Positions 2,914 through 11,508 of a stretch of DNA of 40,476 nt are shown here, in pieces. A program made the position numbers and the translations under genes. The stretch comes from a virus, in the IMG/VR virus record IMGVR_UViG_3300044720_000108, positions 1-40,476 of that record; one strand, 5' to 3'. Positions within the stretch are counted from its first letter, which is position 1. Each line of letters starts with the position of its first letter. The notes under the pieces were generated by a model that saw only the letters and a list, made by a program, of their open reading frames with translations, was not told the origin of the DNA and made no database searches.

Positions 2914-2942
2914 ACGATGCGTGCGAAGTCTTGCGAAGTCAA
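2914..2942 (-). promoter_or_regulatory. Repressor promoter (leaderless), leftward
   Basis: Reading the minus strand: TTGACT (2942-2937), a 17-base spacer, CATCGT (2919-2914), then 6 bases to the GTG at 2907, so the predicted transcript starts at or next to the start codon. The spacer carries two TTCGCA boxes 10 bp apart (2937-2932 and 2927-2922). The -10 hexamer is weak, which could mean activation by a bound regulator. Sequence seen; promoter activity inferred. Confidence 0.55.
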
Positions 2943-3062
2943 TCAAGGCCCGGGGTCGCAAATCTTCGCAATGACAGCCTTGGGGTTATCGAACATCGCA
3001 GGTCAGAGGCTATGTTCGCACTACTTCGCGCGAAGTGCTTGACCTTCGCACTCCTTCGCACT
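2921..3062. promoter_or_regulatory. Operator array of TTCGCA boxes phased at 10 bp
   Basis: Between the divergent regulators lie many copies of TTCGCA. On the plus strand: 2965, 3015, 3045, 3055, with variants GTCGCA at 2955, ATCGCA at 2995 and TTCGCG at 3025, all starting at positions that differ by exact multiples of 10. On the minus strand: 2927-2922 and 2937-2932, again 10 bp apart, plus CGCGAA at 3029-3034. The two promoter-spacer pairs are 10-bp tandem repeats (3043-3052/3053-3062 and 2921-2930/2931-2940). ACTTCGCGCGAAGT at 3023-3036 is a perfect palindrome. One helical turn between boxes suggests cooperative repressor binding on one face of the DNA. Confidence 0.75.
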
Positions 3063-3067
3063 ACTGT
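3039..3067 (+). promoter_or_regulatory. Early rightward promoter (leaderless)
   Basis: TTGACC (3039-3044), a 17-base spacer and TACTGT (3062-3067) form a good promoter. Six bases separate the -10 from the ATG at 3074, so the transcript should begin on the start codon. The spacer consists of two CCTTCGCACT repeats, so a regulator bound there would block polymerase directly. This would be the main promoter of the early lytic operon. Confidence 0.75.
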
Positions 3068-3073
3068 CCTCGC

Positions 3074-3337
3074 ATGGCCAAAGCCCCTCCGAAGACCCGA
3101 ACGACGCGGCGCTCGCCGCTCGACCACGAGCCGGAGGCAGTCGCCTACGCACGCGAGAAGGCGGGTCTAAACCGCGCCCAACTCGCCGAGCGAGTCGGCT
3201 GCGCGCCGAGCCTCATCACCGAGATCGAGGGCGGCACGCGCAACGCCAACCCGGCGATGCTGCTCCGGCTCGCGGAGGCGCTGAACTGTCCGGTCGTCGT
3301 GCTGGAGCGCAAGCGCCCCTCGGCCGGTGCCGCATGA
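3074..3337 (+). CDS. Cro-like XRE-family HTH regulator
   Basis: An 87-residue protein, almost entirely one HTH_3 domain: AYAREKAGLNRAQLAERVGC, APSLITEIEGGTRNANPAML and LRLAEALNCPVVVLERK (about residues 24-80). It is the first gene rightward from the switch, the place of Cro in lambdoid-type circuits, and probably binds the same TTCGCA boxes to shut off the repressor. The ATG at 3074 sits directly at the predicted transcription start. An in-frame GTG at 3035 would put the promoter inside the gene and is rejected. Its stop overlaps the next start (ATGA). Confidence 0.9.
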   Translation: MAKAPPKTRTTRRSPLDHEPEAVAYAREKAGLNRAQLAERVGCAPSLITEIEGGTRNANPAMLLRLAEALNCPVVVLERKRPSAGAA

Positions 3338-3756
3338 CGCACGACCTCGCCACCGAGTACGTCCGAGCCGAGGCGACGCTCCGTTCGCTAGCCGCCTTCG
3401 TTGCGGAGAGCGAGCTGGCGCAGGAACTCCTGACGCTCGCCCGCGCCAGGGCCAGCCGCCACGTCGAACACGTCGAGGAGCAGAAGCAGCGCGCCCTGCG
3501 CGATCAGGCCCAGGTCAACGAGACCCGCGAGCAGACCGGGGAGCGCGGGAGCGATGTCACCACCCGCGACGGCCGCGAGGACGGCGTGCTGCATCGGCGC
3601 GAGCACCTCACCGAACAGAGCACCCTCCAGCGCCTTGTCCTCGGTGACCAGAGCGGTGAGCAGTTCCAGAGCCCGTGCGCGTGCCTCGTCCACGAGATCG
3701 CACGCTACTCCGCGCAGATCAGCGCCCTCGTCGCGGGTGGCGGGAGAGCCGCATGA
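3334..3756 (+). CDS. Hypothetical early protein with a doubtful middle
   Basis: Open frame of 140 residues, ATGA-coupled to the Cro-like gene upstream and to the next gene downstream, which supports its ends. The first 40 or so residues and the last 25 look protein-like (helical, Ala/Leu rich), but residues about 43-115 are almost devoid of hydrophobic residues (E, Q, R, H, D, S rich), as expected from the wrong strand. The codon-aligned minus strand there encodes a plausible hydrophobic protein (3388-3693). Either this gene was interrupted by a counter-oriented gene and stayed open by chance, or the two overlap. Function unknown. Confidence 0.45.
   Translation: MTHDLATEYVRAEATLRSLAAFVAESELAQELLTLARARASRHVEHVEEQKQRALRDQAQVNETREQTGERGSDVTTRDGREDGVLHRREHLTEQSTLQRLVLGDQSGEQFQSPCACLVHEIARYSAQISALVAGGGRAA
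3388..3693 (-). CDS. Counter-oriented small protein A inside the early operon
   Basis: A 101-residue protein starting with GTG at 3693, rich in Leu, Ala and Val with evenly spaced acidic residues, so probably a helical bundle. It shares a pattern with protein B (3978-4328): GDIAP, then L..LVDL, A.GAL and D..D here, against GDVEP, LIDL, ADGAL and D..D in B, aligned by eye with a 3-residue gap. GGAGTAGCGT lies exactly 8 bases before the start, as in B and C; TAGCGT can serve as a -10 for a leaderless or nearly leaderless mRNA. Function unknown. It would be read against the early lytic transcript, so expression in the lysogen is likely. Confidence 0.55.
   Translation of the reverse strand: MDEARARALELLTALVTEDKALEGALFGEVLAPMQHAVLAAVAGGDIAPALPGLLAGLVDLGLIAQGALLLLLDVFDVAAGPGAGERQEFLRQLALRNEGG
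3702..3711 (-). promoter_or_regulatory. GGAGTAGCGT start-proximal element, copy A
   Basis: Minus-strand GGAGTAGCGT ends 8 bases before the GTG at 3693. The same 10-mer at the same distance precedes counter-oriented genes B and C, and I found no other copy in the window. TAGCGT fits the TANNNT -10 of actinobacterial promoters; no -35 is conserved between the copies. Interpreted as a leaderless-type promoter. Confidence 0.5.
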
Positions 3757-4364
3757 GCCGCGACCGCATCCCGGTCCCGGAGGGTGTGACGTTCCTCCGC
3801 CCGACCCCGCTGGAGTACCGGCTGGCCGACGCCGACCCGACCGACCAGGCCGCGCTGCTGCGGCTGTGGCGCGAGGCCGGCGACATGGTCCGCGCCTTCG
3901 AGGACAGCGGACCGGCCCGTCGCGCGATGGCCGAGGAGGACCGCAAGGCCGACTGCGAGCTGTACGTCGAGCGGTACCTACACCTGGCCCGGTCCTGCGG
4001 GCGCTTCGATATCACCCGCGACCAGCTTGAGGCCGACTTCGCGGCTCGGTACCACCCCGTGTGTGACGAGCAGGTCGACCGCGTCGCGGACGAGAACCAG
4101 CGCCCCGTCCGCGAGGTCGATGAGGTAGGTCAGCATCCGGAAGACCGGCTCGACGTCGCCGTTGTCGAGGCCAGTCAGCTTGACACCGTCGCGGAACCGC
4201 GCGGAGGCGGCGAAGTCGTCCTCCAGCGCTCCACGGATGCTGTCGAAGTCCAGCGGGCTCACGGCCCACGTCTCCAGCATGTTCTTCGCAAGGTGCGCTC
4301 GCTCGTACACGTCACGTCGATCGGTCATGCCCTCGGACGCTACTCCCGCCGCGGTGCCGCATGA
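3753..4364 (+). CDS. Hypothetical early protein, 3' half probably non-native
   Basis: Open frame of 203 residues from ATG 3753 (ATGA overlap with the gene before). Residues 1 to about 100 look like a genuine soluble, acidic helical protein (VTFLRPTPLEYRLADADPTD, LLRLWREAGDMVRAFE, FDITRDQLEADFAARYH). After about base 4055 the composition becomes that of an antisense reading of gene B, and the frame ends in ALGRYSRRGAA, encoded by the 39-bp repeat. A +2 reading would meet TGA right at the junction (GTGTGA near 4060), so an ancestral stop may have been lost. Function unknown. Confidence 0.55.
   Translation: MSRDRIPVPEGVTFLRPTPLEYRLADADPTDQAALLRLWREAGDMVRAFEDSGPARRAMAEEDRKADCELYVERYLHLARSCGRFDITRDQLEADFAARYHPVCDEQVDRVADENQRPVREVDEVGQHPEDRLDVAVVEASQLDTVAEPRGGGEVVLQRSTDAVEVQRAHGPRLQHVLRKVRSLVHVTSIGHALGRYSRRGAA
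3978..4328 (-). CDS. Counter-oriented small protein B inside the early operon
   Basis: A 116-residue protein from ATG 4328. Codon third positions are almost all G or C through residue 90, and the sequence has normal alternation (YERAHLAKNMLETWAVSPLD, VFRMLTYLIDLADGALVLVR), so this strand is the coding one for 4060-4328. The last 25 residues overlap the believable part of the plus-strand gene and may not be native. GGAGTAGCGT lies 8 bases before the ATG. It resembles protein A around GDVEP...LIDLADGAL; similarity to C (AV[DE]xL...GV) is weak. Function unknown; likely expressed from its own promoter rather than from the early operon. Confidence 0.65.
   Translation of the reverse strand: MTDRRDVYERAHLAKNMLETWAVSPLDFDSIRGALEDDFAASARFRDGVKLTGLDNGDVEPVFRMLTYLIDLADGALVLVRDAVDLLVTHGVVPSREVGLKLVAGDIEAPAGPGQV
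4326..4364 (-). repeat. 39-bp direct repeat, copy 1
   Basis: Runs from the start codon of gene B to the stop/start junction of the plus-strand genes and recurs at 5029-5067 with a single mismatch (38 of 39). It contains the GGAGTAGCGT element (4337-4346) and ends in the CGGTGCCGCATGA junction motif. In the plus frame it encodes ALGRYSRRGAA at the end of two otherwise unrelated open frames. Confidence 0.9.
4337..4346 (-). promoter_or_regulatory. GGAGTAGCGT start-proximal element, copy B
   Basis: Minus-strand GGAGTAGCGT, 8 bases before the ATG of gene B at 4328. Probable -10 (TAGCGT) of a leaderless-type promoter shared with genes A and C. Confidence 0.55.
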
Positions 4365-4594
4365 TCGAGGCCACGTACGTTCTTGACACTCCGTGCCCCG
4401 CGCGGCTTGGGACGGCGCTGCGCTTCTGCGGCACCGACCACCTGCTCGGGACCGAGGTCGTCGTCGAGGCGCTTCACACCTACCCCGAGCGGGTCGTCGA
4501 GGGCGACGTGCTCGCGGAGGTCCGCTGCGCCCTCGACGGGCAGTCGTACGGGGCGGCGTTCTTCATCCCCCTGACCGACCTGGCAGCCGCATGA
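4361..4594 (+). CDS. Hypothetical small early protein
   Basis: A 77-residue protein (ATYVLDTPCPARLGTALRFC, VVVEALHTYPERVVEGDVLA) with beta-rich alternation and no recognised family. Both ends are ATGA overlaps with the neighbouring plus-strand genes. It sits between the two counter-oriented cassettes B and C and reads normally throughout, with no competing minus-strand gene. Confidence 0.75.
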   Translation: MIEATYVLDTPCPARLGTALRFCGTDHLLGTEVVVEALHTYPERVVEGDVLAEVRCALDGQSYGAAFFIPLTDLAAA

Positions 4595-5067
4595 CCACCG
4601 CCGATGCGATCTACGCCATCGCCACTGACCTGATGCCCTGCCACCTGACGAACGCCACCATGTTCCGCTGGCGCTTCGGCCGGGACGGCACCCCCGAGGA
4701 GGTCGCGGCGTTCATCGCCGACCCGGCGTCATTCCTCCGCGAAGTGCGCGCCGAGCTCGGCGAGGACCGTCTCGACGGTCACGCCCCGGCAGTCCGCCAG
4801 CCACTCGACGGCCCGCTTGGCGACGTTCCCGACCCCGTACACGAGGTGCATCGCATTCGCTGCGGCGCGCATCTCCTCGGTCTGGGCCTGCGGGTGCTGG
4901 TCGGTCAGCGGGTTCGCGTCCAGCACGATCCGCACGAGTGCGTCTCGCATCGCAGGACCGCCGCCGGCGAACCCCGCCGTGACGACCTCCAGCCCAAGAC
5001 GCCCAGCGCTGCGCGTCGCCTCGTCCGCCATGCCCTCGGACGCTACTCCCGCCGGGGTGCCGCATGA
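4591..5067 (+). CDS. Hypothetical early protein, 3' two thirds probably non-native
   Basis: Open frame of 158 residues, ATGA-linked at both ends. Residues 1-50 are convincing (MTTADAIYAIATDLMPCHL, FRWRFGRDGTPEEVAAFIAD). Beyond about 4745 it becomes R, H, D, V rich, the antisense image of gene C, and it ends in the same ALGRYSRRGAA tail as the frame at 3753-4364 because both finish in the 39-bp repeat. Probably a short gene whose 3' end was replaced when the counter-oriented cassette arrived. Function unknown. Confidence 0.5.
   Translation: MTTADAIYAIATDLMPCHLTNATMFRWRFGRDGTPEEVAAFIADPASFLREVRAELGEDRLDGHAPAVRQPLDGPLGDVPDPVHEVHRIRCGAHLLGLGLRVLVGQRVRVQHDPHECVSHRRTAAGEPRRDDLQPKTPSAARRLVRHALGRYSRRGAA
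4729..5031 (-). CDS. Counter-oriented small protein C inside the early operon
   Basis: A 100-residue helical protein from ATG 5031 (MADEATRSAGRLGLEVVTAG, EEMRAAANAMHLVYGVGNVA, EWLADCRGVTVETVLAELG). Composition and third-position G/C favour this strand over the plus frame. GGAGTAGCGT ends 8 bases before the start, within copy 2 of the 39-bp repeat. It is similar in size to A and B, with only a weak match to B near the C-terminus. Function unknown; transcription would oppose the early operon. Confidence 0.62.
   Translation of the reverse strand: MADEATRSAGRLGLEVVTAGFAGGGPAMRDALVRIVLDANPLTDQHPQAQTEEMRAAANAMHLVYGVGNVAKRAVEWLADCRGVTVETVLAELGAHFAEE
5029..5067 (-). repeat. 39-bp direct repeat, copy 2
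   Basis: Second copy of the repeat at 4326-4364, with one mismatch. It spans the start codon of gene C, its GGAGTAGCGT element (5040-5049) and the GGGTGCCGCATGA junction. The 13-bp junction alone also occurs at 3325-3337 and 5390-5402. Confidence 0.9.
5040..5049 (-). promoter_or_regulatory. GGAGTAGCGT start-proximal element, copy C
   Basis: Minus-strand GGAGTAGCGT, 8 bases before the ATG of gene C at 5031; third member of the set at 3702-3711 and 4337-4346. Confidence 0.55.
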
Positions 5068-5402
5068 CCGGCGTTCGCGTGCCGGGCGAGGCGTGGCCGT
5101 CGCCGAGGCTGTACCCCGACCTGTGCGACTACGACTCCATCGACCCTGGCATCGTCGGCCCGCTGCGGGTCCTGCGGCAGTCCGGGATCGAGACGTTCGA
5201 GTCCTGCGAGGGCGGCCCCGGCCACGCCTACGCGGAGCCGAGCATCCGGTTCCACGGCAACCGGTCGGAGGGCTGGAAGGCGCTCGCCGCCGCGCGTGAC
5301 GTGAACCTCCCGGTGACCGCGCTGCGCCGCGTCTGGACCGTCCACGACGGGGAGCCGGACGGGCCGGTATGGGAAATCGTGTTCCGGCGCGGTGCCGCAT
5401 GA
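5064..5402 (+). CDS. Hypothetical phage protein with SCEGGPGH motif
   Basis: A 112-residue soluble protein. The signature TFESCEGGPGHAYAEPSIRF (about residues 40-59), followed by RFHGNRSEGWKAL, is of a kind seen in many actinophage early proteins of unknown function; the cysteine and histidine suggest metal binding. A similar signature (SCCGHGHRPG) is in the last gene of the window. ATGA overlaps on both sides place it firmly in the early operon. Confidence 0.82.
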   Translation: MTGVRVPGEAWPSPRLYPDLCDYDSIDPGIVGPLRVLRQSGIETFESCEGGPGHAYAEPSIRFHGNRSEGWKALAAARDVNLPVTALRRVWTVHDGEPDGPVWEIVFRRGAA

Positions 5403-7429: not shown

Positions 7430-7789
7430 ATGGCCGCCACGACCACCGATCCGAGGGCCGCGATCCTGGCGGCCTGCGACGAGACGGAGCGGCTGGCGAA
7501 GGCGGCGACCGACGGCGACGGCGTGTGGATCGCGACCGGACGCGACGTAGAGACGCGCTCGGGTCGGACGGTCGCGATTCCGACGCACCCCGAGATCGAG
7601 GAGTACGTCGCTGCTCACGACCCCGCCACGGTGCTGCGTGAGATGGCCGCCCTCCGCGCGTTCGTGACGCTCCACCTCGGCGAGACGGACATCTTCACCT
7701 GCGTTTGCACGGACGAGGACGGCGACTACTGTTTCGACCTCGCGGCTCTGGCTGACGGGCTCGCTCCCGGCTGGCGGGAGGCGCCGTGA
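7430..7789 (+). CDS. DUF6221-like phage protein
   Basis: A 119-residue protein from ATG 7430 with upstream GAGAGGA. The core PEIEEYVAAHDPATVLREMA (about residues 54-73), followed by a Cys pair (CVCTDEDGDYC), resembles the DUF6221 family of actinobacteria and their phages (HDP.RVLRE core); function unknown. Family call is from memory of the motif, moderate certainty. GTGA overlap with the Rad52-like gene. Confidence 0.75.
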   Translation: MAATTTDPRAAILAACDETERLAKAATDGDGVWIATGRDVETRSGRTVAIPTHPEIEEYVAAHDPATVLREMAALRAFVTLHLGETDIFTCVCTDEDGDYCFDLAALADGLAPGWREAP

Positions 7790-8559
7790 CGGACTACCTG
7801 TCGGCGGAGCAGGTCGCCAAGTTGCTGGAGCCGATCCACCCCGGTCGCGTGTCGCACCGGGACGGGCAGTCGCACCTGGAGGCGTACGACGTCCGGGCGC
7901 ACCTGAACCGGGTGTTCGGCTTCGGCCGCTGGTCCGCCGACCTCCTCACCCTGGACATGCTCTACGAGCAGGCGACGGAGACGAAGAACGGCAAGCCCGC
8001 GTTCGCGGTCGGCTACCGGGCCACTGTCCGGCTGACGGTCTGCGCCCCTGACGGGACGGTCCTGGCCACCTACACGGAGGCGGCGTGCGGGGACGGCTTG
8101 ATGCCCGACTACAAGCGGGCCGACACCCACGACTTCGCGGTCAAGACCGCCGAGTCACAGGCGCTGAAGCGGTGCGCGATCAACCTCGGCGACCAGTTCG
8201 GGCTGTCCCTCTACCGGGGCGGGTCGACGGATGCCGTCGTGGTCAAGACGTGGGTCATGCCGGACAGCGCCGAGGACGCGACTGACGCCCCGGCCTTCAC
8301 TGAACCGGCCGTCGTGCCGGAGGTCGCAGGCGGCCTGACGCCGGAGGAGCAGGTCGCAGCGGACGACGCGAAGGCCACAGGCATCCGCGCGGCGGCGCTA
8401 GCGGACGGGGTGACGCCGCAGCAGATCGCTGGCCTGCAACTCCAGGCGAAGAACCTGCGGGACCACCCGGTGACCGGCCGGCTGGGCGGGACCACGACGC
8501 TGGGTGAGTTCCTGGCGGACTGCGCGGACGCGCTGTCGAAGGGACGGGCGAGCGCATGA
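7786..8559 (+). CDS. Rad52/22-like single-strand annealing protein
   Basis: A 257-residue recombinase of the Rad52/Rad22 double-strand-break repair type, expected to anneal complementary ssDNA in phage recombination and replication. The annealing domain covers about residues 3-145: LSAEQVAKLLEPIHPGRVSH, YDVRAHLNRVFGFGRWS, then the hallmark DYKRADTHDFAVKTAESQAL followed by KRCAINLGDQFGLSLY. The C-terminal half is an acidic linker plus a helical region. GTG 7786, GTGA overlap. No partner exonuclease is evident. Confidence 0.88.
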   Translation: MTDYLSAEQVAKLLEPIHPGRVSHRDGQSHLEAYDVRAHLNRVFGFGRWSADLLTLDMLYEQATETKNGKPAFAVGYRATVRLTVCAPDGTVLATYTEAACGDGLMPDYKRADTHDFAVKTAESQALKRCAINLGDQFGLSLYRGGSTDAVVVKTWVMPDSAEDATDAPAFTEPAVVPEVAGGLTPEEQVAADDAKATGIRAAALADGVTPQQIAGLQLQAKNLRDHPVTGRLGGTTTLGEFLADCADALSKGRASA

Positions 8560-9769: not shown

Positions 9770-10218
9770 CCTACGTCCCCCTCCCCCGCCGCGCGGTCAG
9801 GCCGAAGCCGAAGCGCCACCCGATGCCGACGAGCCGCCGGGACGAGGTCGCGGCGCGGGCGCAGGGCCGCTGCGAGGGCTGCGGCGTCCCGCTGGACGGC
9901 TCGTGGGAGTGCCACCACCGGCAGGGCCGGGGCATGGGCGGCTCGGCACGTCCTGAGGCGCACGCCCTGTCGAACCTGCTGGCGCTGTGCAGGCCGTGCC
10001 ATGCGGACGCGACGAGCGAGCAGCCGTGGGTGGTCTCTGCGGGGCTGGTGGTGCGGCGCTGGCAGTCCCCGTTCGCGGTGCCGGTCCGGTACCGGCAGGG
10101 CCGCTGGGTGTTCCTGGATGACGACGGGTCGCTGGTCGCGGCCCCGGCTGACGAACTGATGCGGGCCGCTGTCGCGGCCGAGCGAGAGAGAAGGACAGCG
10201 TGCGCTCCTCGACCGTGA
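9766..10218 (+). CDS. HNH endonuclease
   Basis: A 150-residue protein. The HNH motif is clear: structural C36/C39 (CEGC) and C75/C78 (CRPC), the H50-H51 pair (ECHHRQGRGMGG) and N70 with H79 (LSNLLALCRPCHADA). The N-terminus is basic; the C-terminus adds a small beta domain (VRYRQGRWVFLDDDGSLV). Such nucleases cut or nick DNA during replication, recombination or as homing-type enzymes. GTG start with GTGA overlap. Confidence 0.88.
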   Translation: MTYVPLPRRAVRPKPKRHPMPTSRRDEVAARAQGRCEGCGVPLDGSWECHHRQGRGMGGSARPEAHALSNLLALCRPCHADATSEQPWVVSAGLVVRRWQSPFAVPVRYRQGRWVFLDDDGSLVAAPADELMRAAVAAERERRTACAPRP

Positions 10219-10295: not shown

Positions 10296-10522
10296 GGCCC
10301 TCGGACCCCTGGTGGGGCGAGCCGCTCGGCCTCCTGCTGCTCGTCCTGCTGGGCGTGCTGCTCGCGGGCGGCTGGGCGTTCGCCCGCGCGGTCCGCGACA
10401 CGCGCCGGGAGCGCCGCCGCCGCCGGACCGTCGTGCGCGGCTACGACGTGCAGGCCGAGCGGCGGCGGCGGGTGGAGCGGCTCGTCGCTGAGTCGCGCGA
10501 GCGGGACCGGAGGGCGTCGTGA
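10292..10522 (+). CDS. Single-span membrane protein with basic tail
   Basis: A 76-residue protein. One transmembrane helix (EPLGLLLLVLLGVLLAGGWA, about residues 9-28) is followed by a highly basic, probably cytoplasmic coil (RDTRRERRRRRTVVRGYDVQ). No family recognised. GTGA overlap with the DUF5131 gene. Confidence 0.75.
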   Translation: MRPSDPWWGEPLGLLLLVLLGVLLAGGWAFARAVRDTRRERRRRRTVVRGYDVQAERRRRVERLVAESRERDRRAS

Positions 10523-11508
10523 GCGACGGCAGCAAGATCGAGTGGACCGAGGCGACGTGGAACCCGGTGACGGGCTGCACGAAGGTCTCCCCCGGCTGCG
10601 ACCACTGCTACGCGGAGCGGGTCACGGAACGCTTCCACGGCAAGGGCTCGTTCGCCACGGTGACGCTGCACCCGGACCGGCTCGACCAGCCGATCCGCTG
10701 GCGCCGGCCCCGCCGCATCTTCGTCAACTCCATGTCCGACCTGTTCCACGACGCGGTCCCGGACGAGTTCGTCGCGGACGTGTTCGCGGTGATGGCGATG
10801 GCGGAGCGGCACACCTTCCAGGTGCTGTCGAAGCGGCCCGCGCGGATGCGGAGCCTGCTGTCCAGCAGGGCGTTCCTCGACCTCGTGATGGACCGGGTGC
10901 TGCGGGAGGACCCGGCGGCGCGGCGGAGGTTCGCGGAGACCCGGTGGCCGCTGCGGAACGTGTGGCTCGGCGTCTCCGTGGAGAACCAGCAGTGGGCGGA
11001 CATTCGCGTACCGGCGCTGCTCGGAACCCCTGCAGCCGTGCGATTCCTGTCCTGCGAGCCGCTGCTCGGGCCAGTCAACCTGCACCGAGGGCACGCGACC
11101 TGTCCCGTCCACGACTTCTCGGGCGGGTTCTGCACCGGCCCTTGCCCTGACCGCTACACGATCGACTGGGTGATCGCTGGCGGCGAGTCGGGCCAGGGCG
11201 CGCGTCCGATGCACCCGGCGTGGGCGCGCACCCTGCGCGACGAGTGCGCGGCGGCAGGCGTGCCGTTCTTCTTCAAGCAGTGGGGCGAGTGGGCACCGGA
11301 GTCGATGCTTGTACACAAGGACGCCGCGCCCGCGGCCTACGTCGGCATCGACGGCGTCGTGCGACCTCTCGTCAACGGCACTCCCGCCGCGCCACCCAGG
11401 GCGCGTGGCGTCGACCCGACCGTGCGTCGCGTGGGCAAGAAGGCGGCCGGGCGGCTCCTTGACGGCCGCACCCATGACGACTACCCGACCCCGGAGGCGG
11501 TGCGCTGA
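10519..11508 (+). CDS. DUF5131 (phage Gp37/Gp68) family protein
   Basis: A 329-residue protein with the family hallmark at its start: KIEWTEATWNPVTGCTKVSP then GCDHCYAER (CxxC, radical-SAM-like arrangement; about residues 6-34). It continues FVNSMSDLFHDAVPDEFV, LSKRPARM, WLGVSVENQQWADIRVPAL and WVIAGGESGQGARPMHPAW, then the FFFKQWGEW end. The family is widespread in phages and plasmids; its reaction is not established, though a radical SAM-related fold has been suggested. It is complete and carries about 70 extra C-terminal residues. Confidence 0.9.
   Translation: MSDGSKIEWTEATWNPVTGCTKVSPGCDHCYAERVTERFHGKGSFATVTLHPDRLDQPIRWRRPRRIFVNSMSDLFHDAVPDEFVADVFAVMAMAERHTFQVLSKRPARMRSLLSSRAFLDLVMDRVLREDPAARRRFAETRWPLRNVWLGVSVENQQWADIRVPALLGTPAAVRFLSCEPLLGPVNLHRGHATCPVHDFSGGFCTGPCPDRYTIDWVIAGGESGQGARPMHPAWARTLRDECAAAGVPFFFKQWGEWAPESMLVHKDAAPAAYVGIDGVVRPLVNGTPAAPPRARGVDPTVRRVGKKAAGRLLDGRTHDDYPTPEAVR

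Follow-up and report, generated by a model that had tools for sequence, protein, structure and literature searches.

The stretch of DNA analysed here (the window) corresponds to one virus record, 40,476 bases long, with a GC content of 71.8%. It reads as a temperate tailed phage, with an integrase, a candidate repressor and an immunity region on the left (Table 1), a rightward early operon, and structural and lysis-type genes that fill the right part up to the right end. The recombinase encoded in the early operon has its kin in phages of Streptomyces, Rhodococcus, Microbacterium and Arthrobacter, so that the host is probably an actinobacterium. Beside the integrase, two leftward neighbours (1083-1709 and 1618-2109) are tandemly duplicated genes with the common motif EWYRA.DG...PTPY, and a 103-nt direct repeat, 76% identical between its copies, occupies positions 1504-1606 and 1991-2093. 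Farther into the early region, positions 10519-11508 encode a DUF5131 family protein (E = 2.4e-102). A search for RNA families across the window returned none.

The promoter of the cro-like gene that opens the early operon is of a clear TANNNT type and was used as an internal positive control. Repeats of the form TTCGCAC / GTGCGAA are clustered around this promoter, at 2917-3069, and are probable repressor operators. Beyond the cro-like gene, three counter-oriented open reading frames, A, B and C, are embedded in the operon among the plus-strand frames P1 to P5. They had been proposed in an earlier, sequence-only reading of the window, and their coordinates are correct in all three cases. The sequence GGTGCCGCATGA occurs exactly at four junctions between plus-strand genes (3326-3337, 4353-4364, 5056-5067 and 5391-5402), with near copies at 3745 and 4583; at these junctions, the stop and start codons overlap as ATGA, and GGTG is the apparent Shine-Dalgarno sequence. 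GGTGCCGCATGA looks like a forward start-associated boundary sequence.

Table 1. Coordinates of the features of the window discussed in the text
Feature	Positions	Strand	Remarks
Tyrosine integrase	1-1083	minus	PF00589
Helix-turn-helix repressor candidate	2467-2961	minus	PF13560 match just below the cut-off
Immunity region	2917-3073		
cro-like gene	3074-3337	plus	first in the early operon; apparently leaderless: TTGACC-N17-TACTGT-N6-ATG
P1	3334-3756	plus	reads through A, ends at ATGA junction
Gene A	3388-3693	minus	GTG start, 101 aa; start element and similarity to B; codon statistics ambiguous
Start element of A	3702-3711	minus	GGAG + TAGCGT, 8 nt before GTG
P2	3753-4364	plus	coding up to about 4060; tail beyond it antisense to B; ends at ATGA junction
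Gene B	3978-4328	minus	ATG start, 116 aa; codon log-ratio and six-frame scan
47-nt repeat, copy 1	4321-4367		B start codon, 32 nt, P3 start codon
Start element of B	4337-4346	minus	candidate leaderless -10, 8 nt before ATG
P3	4361-4594	plus	ordinary early gene, divergent from B; log-ratio +0.39 per codon
P4	4591-5067	plus	coding 4591-4728, then tail antisense to C, ends at ATGA junction
Gene C	4729-5031	minus	ATG start, 100 aa; codon log-ratio and six-frame scan
47-nt repeat, copy 2	5024-5070		C start codon, 32 nt, P5 start codon
Start element of C	5040-5049	minus	candidate leaderless -10, 8 nt before ATG
P5	5064-5402	plus	ordinary early gene, divergent from C; log-ratio +0.48 per codon
Recombinase	7786-8559		in the rightward early operon

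The coding strand was assessed with a codon table trained on well-supported genes, by comparing every codon with its own reverse complement and expressing the outcome as a log-ratio per codon. Ordinary plus-strand genes, cut into 60 pieces of 100 codons, score +0.59 ± 0.18 per codon, with a minimum of +0.23. The values of B (−0.23) and C (−0.33) fall on the minus-strand side. A six-frame scan agrees with these log-ratios and reveals strand switches inside two plus-strand frames, in P2 near position 4080, which lies within B some 30 codons from its 3' end, and in P4 near position 4735, at the end of C. B and C are firmly minus-strand genes. For A, the log-ratio is −0.03 per codon, favouring neither strand, so that the codon-phase check on both strands, suggested earlier for all three genes, came out for the minus strand in B and C and was ambiguous in A.

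Nevertheless, A is probably a minus-strand gene as well, because its protein similarity to B is present only on that strand. On the minus strand, the comparison of A with B yields a Smith-Waterman score of 54, compared to 29 ± 5 for codon shuffles (p about 0.0015) and to 37 for the best of 107 antisense control pieces; when read on the plus strand, the same comparison is at chance level. The common motif GD[IV].P...L[IV]DL...A.GAL, previously noticed in A and B, is accordingly real on the minus strand by the Smith-Waterman test and absent on the plus strand. The A-B similarity was not significant by BLASTP. A single family comprising all three genes was rejected given that only the A-B pair is significant by shuffling, B-C and A-C both being at chance.

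The suggestion that the plus-strand frames across A, B and C are antisense sequence stands for the tails of these frames but not for their 5' parts, which are well-supported coding sequence in P2 and P4 and include a short coding part in P1. P1 is forward-coding at both ends, with neither strand favoured across A. Homologues of P5 were found in loci L118 (48%) and L037 (37%); no homologues of P1, P2 or P4 were detected in phage records, nor any of the 5' part of P2 in viral contigs. One weak match to P2, comprising 66 residues at 14 bits within a 741-aa frame that contains a stop, was dismissed as chance. The open read-through of P1, P2 and P4 is striking at first sight but largely expected, given that 91% of codon-aligned antisense frames in this genome stay free of stops over 103 codons, compared to 18% and 9% for the other two alignments. 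The codon alignment of the three overlaps was considered as evidence of selection and rejected, because three open frames are expected by chance with an estimated probability of about 0.06, which is not significant.

Two further claims of the sequence-only reading concern the start of these genes, and both were borne out: GGAGTAGCGT lies exactly 8 nt before the start codon in all three copies, and with exactly three occurrences it has no further exact copy in the 40 kb. Three copies of a bare 10-mer at a fixed offset are in themselves unremarkable, given that simulations produce 0-4 and that two other GC-only 10-mers likewise occur three times. The extraordinary aspect of GGAGTAGCGT is its TANNNT content, not its copy number. 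A TANNNT box 5-9 nt before a start codon is present at eight sites on both strands of the 40 kb, four of which belong to cro, A, B and C; the remaining four precede one long open reading frame (7395, TTG start, overlapping plus-strand genes) and three short frames, and none of the 46 other called plus-strand genes has such a site. The distance from the box to the start codon is 8 nt in A, B and C and 6 nt in cro. No Shine-Dalgarno 4-mer was found 4-10 nt before the start in any of these four genes; 31 of the 46 others have one. Between the end of GGAG in the element and the start codon lie 14 nt, a distance too large for ribosome binding. A −35 hexamer was sought at the A, B and C promoters and not found.

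This arrangement is familiar from actinobacteria. In Mycobacterium tuberculosis, 73% of the primary transcription starts have a TANNNT −10 motif upstream, which is not accompanied by a −35 motif and frequently follows an SRN triplet. One gene in four is leaderless, and promoters with TANNNT but no −35 motif predominate in mycobacteria (PMC3898074). Many leaderless mRNAs have been reported in Streptomyces coelicolor as well (PMC4681348). In the window, GAG precedes the TAGCGT box, matching the SRN triplet. We favour the reading of the element as a −10 box of the actinobacterial type (TAGCGT, an instance of TANNNT) that would drive a leaderless mRNA.

The same 10-mer could, in principle, be a plus-strand coding sequence, specifying Arg-Tyr-Ser, that was duplicated together with the C-termini of P2 and P4 and is present by chance in P1, in which case A, B and C would be antisense open reading frames opened by the high GC content. 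Consistent with this view, the complement, CGC TAC TCC, is in frame in P1, P2 and P4, codon-aligned antisense frames are commonly open here, as described above, and the sole match of the extended motif in viral contigs (L191), antisense within an rdgC-like gene, was attributed to chance. However, none of the 60 plus-gene pieces scores below +0.23, in contrast to the negative values of B and C, cro is the only other called gene preceded by a TANNNT box, and homologues of P1, P2 and P4 were not found in phage records either. We consider this explanation very unlikely.

Repeated start-proximal sequences with a translational role are known from cluster K phages. There, the start-associated sequence (SAS), GGGATAGGAGCCC, is typically located 3-7 nt before the start codon and contains AGGAG as the ribosome-binding site (PMC3203893), and the ESAS also holds a putative SigA-like promoter (PMC11373665). 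The element in the window might similarly be a phage-specific start-associated sequence that functions in translation rather than as a promoter, which would fit both the repetition of a short conserved sequence in front of start codons in the non-structural region and the presence of GGAG. Nevertheless, the SAS typically places AGGAG in the ribosome-binding position, at 3-7 nt (PMC3203893), which the GGAG of the element does not occupy, and a perfect TANNNT is contained within the sequence. This possibility appears most improbable, and GGAGTAGCGT was rejected as a copy of the cluster K SAS itself on account of its different sequence and the 14-nt distance of its GGAG from the start codon.

The elements of B and C lie inside one 47-nt repeat and hence amount, together with that of A, to two independent observations rather than three. 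The two copies of this repeat (family D3) are 91% identical, and each extends between two start codons, that of the backward gene and that of the forward gene next to it. A further interpretation, which we entertain tentatively and regard as rather unlikely, is that these are two-strand loci, in which P1, P2 and P4 would be translated from authentic 5' parts through their antisense tails to the ATGA junctions that couple the next gene, while the minus strand encodes a lysogenic protein expressed from a leaderless promoter, and the 47-nt block would serve unrelated gene pairs as a divergent start module. In that case, backward genes would be tolerated in the operon by virtue of the open codon-aligned antisense frame.

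Taking these lines of evidence together, we consider it likely that A, B and C are small backward accessory genes that possess their own leaderless sigma-A-type promoters and would be expressed in the lysogen. Under this model, each gene would be transcribed from a sigma-A-type promoter whose TAGCGT −10 box ends 8 nt before the start codon; the mRNA would begin at or a few nucleotides from the start codon and would be translated without a Shine-Dalgarno sequence. The promoters are located outside the cluster of operator-like repeats, and no copy of the TTCGCAC repeat of the immunity region was found at any of the three, so that they are predicted not to be silenced together with the early operon and would be active in the lysogen, in which the rightward operon is shut down. 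The common element thus looks like a candidate promoter independent of the repressor. During early lytic growth, transcription from the two directions would collide: transcripts of A would cross cro in the antisense orientation and could reach the repressor gene, those of B would cross the start of P2, and those of C the start of P4. On the minus strand, a search for intrinsic terminators downstream of A, B and C was negative, and folding past each stop codon is no better than in shuffled sequences. Lysogenic expression and interference are both predictions from the sequence, and an antisense role for the transcription of these genes is possible.

Carried further, the antisense argument suggests an alternative in which the leftward transcripts themselves block or degrade the early operon mRNA and the proteins matter little. 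The phage lambda promoter pRE is a leftward promoter beyond cro that produces a transcript antisense to cro, heading to the repressor gene. The transcript of A would likewise be antisense to cro and continue into the repressor gene; the analogy is a positional one and holds for the promoter of A only, which is situated about 360 bp past the cro stop codon, and the layout differs from lambda in that no CII-like activator was identified and in that A is itself a gene. Two further observations are compatible with this alternative, namely, that the search for intrinsic terminators was also negative in the interval separating A from the leftward repressor gene, and that lysogens of phage Adephagia show reverse-strand expression antisense to genes 37-39 (PMC11373665). 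However, a pure antisense RNA requires neither the minus-strand codon usage of B and C nor the protein similarity between A and B, and the exact placement of the element 8 nt before the start codon at all three promoters also argues against it. We judge it clearly unlikely.

As to what accessory proteins A, B and C might encode, searches of Pfam, PHROGs, PADLOC and PDB produced no match at a credible E-value, and the defence-family models of PADLOC produced none at E up to 0.1. Two candidates were discarded: PF21415 for gene A (E = 0.02, below the family cut-off) and a PDB match of gene C to k-cTRP5, which covers 23 residues of what is apparently a designed repeat protein. The structural models of B and C are both all-helical and of low confidence (pLDDT 54 and 57, respectively). 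No homologues of the three proteins were found in phage records by tblastn, sequence patterns derived from them gave empty or chance-level results in viral contigs, and a pattern scan for B in the contigs of species genomes detected none. Protein searches for B in 19 whole genomes and in 397 genomes of one actinobacterial phylum, and a search of the latter with an A+B profile, were likewise empty or at chance level; run without a positive control, these whole-genome searches constitute weak evidence. A protein function for A, B and C and a role in immunity are thus unsupported by the sequence comparisons.

The TANNNT signature could be evaluated more broadly in about 180 related loci that were gathered via the recombinase and the capsid protein. 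Short minus-strand genes located between plus-strand genes were picked blind to promoters, and after removal of two near-duplicate loci from 25, the sample included 23 genes. A TANNNT box 5-9 nt before a plausible start was found in 16 of the 23, compared to 4.4 ± 1.8 expected from local shuffles; any in-frame start that left at least 60% of the open reading frame was counted, with the same latitude given to the shuffles, and since a few of the 23 genes lie on contigs that are close kin, somewhat fewer than 23 are independent. The TANNNT signature therefore marks counter-oriented genes generally in this phage group. The products of these 23 genes include two Phd/YefM-type antitoxins (one just under the cut-off), one GntR-type regulator and one acetyltransferase. 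Backward, apparently leaderless genes for Phd/YefM-type antitoxins are located inside plus-strand operons at L064:16377-16661 and L066:7658-7864. In a capsid-related phage, the minus-strand gene at L128:9829-10182 has GGAGTATCGT, which is the element of the window with one base changed, six nucleotides before an in-frame ATG at 10131. The nearest relatives by recombinase (L024-L027), which are distant, with 61% in that protein, have an early operon without such genes. A scan of the relatives for read-through plus-strand frames was abandoned as too unspecific, with 208 hits in 129 loci.

The presence of backward, apparently leaderless genes inside an early operon is a real, unusual combination of known parts. 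What is unusual is, first, that several such genes have one exact start element and are nested in read-through forward genes and, second, that a near-identical divergent start block is common to two unrelated gene pairs. A simple rule follows, namely, that a gene opposing the operon, with TANNNT 5-9 nt ahead of its start, is a candidate lysogen-expressed gene in actinobacterial prophages, and this rule should be useful where homology fails to recognise most accessory genes. The locus also offers a concrete case in which to study possible tuning of early gene expression by opposing transcription, as well as the capacity of phage operons for long antisense-coded tails.

Compared to known systems, A, B and C resemble the actinobacterial leaderless TANNNT genes in that the box is near the start, the −35 motif and the Shine-Dalgarno sequence are missing, and an SRN triplet is present; they differ in that three genes have one exact 10-mer and are oriented backwards in a phage early operon, and their transcription start is a prediction from the sequence. 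Like the SAS and ESAS of cluster K, GGAGTAGCGT is a short sequence repeated before the start codons of different genes, but its sequence, spacing and position are different, and no 17-bp inverted repeat was seen. In Adephagia, gene 90 is predicted to give a leaderless lysogenic transcript, and a leftward lysogenic transcript comes from gene 40 (PMC11373665). Both the leaderless lysogenic expression (gene 90) and the reverse-strand antisense expression (gene 40) have counterparts, here only predicted, in A, B and C, although those of Adephagia involve single genes, with no element common to three genes and no nesting in read-through plus-strand frames. In their predicted workings, A, B and C are like leaderless accessory genes of actinobacterial prophages. 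A further parallel is with prophage morons and lysogen-expressed accessory genes, such as the defence genes of mycobacteriophage Sbash (PMC6426596) and Gordonia phage CarolAnn (PMC6426606). A, B and C differ from these in overlapping plus-strand genes on the opposite strand instead of being intergenic and in that no terminator was found; because an own terminator is a defining feature of morons, we call them moron-like rather than morons. In being small, with a candidate promoter of their own and apparently outside repressor control, they resemble morons, and we conclude that A, B and C are most likely moron-like accessory genes expressed independently of the repressor.
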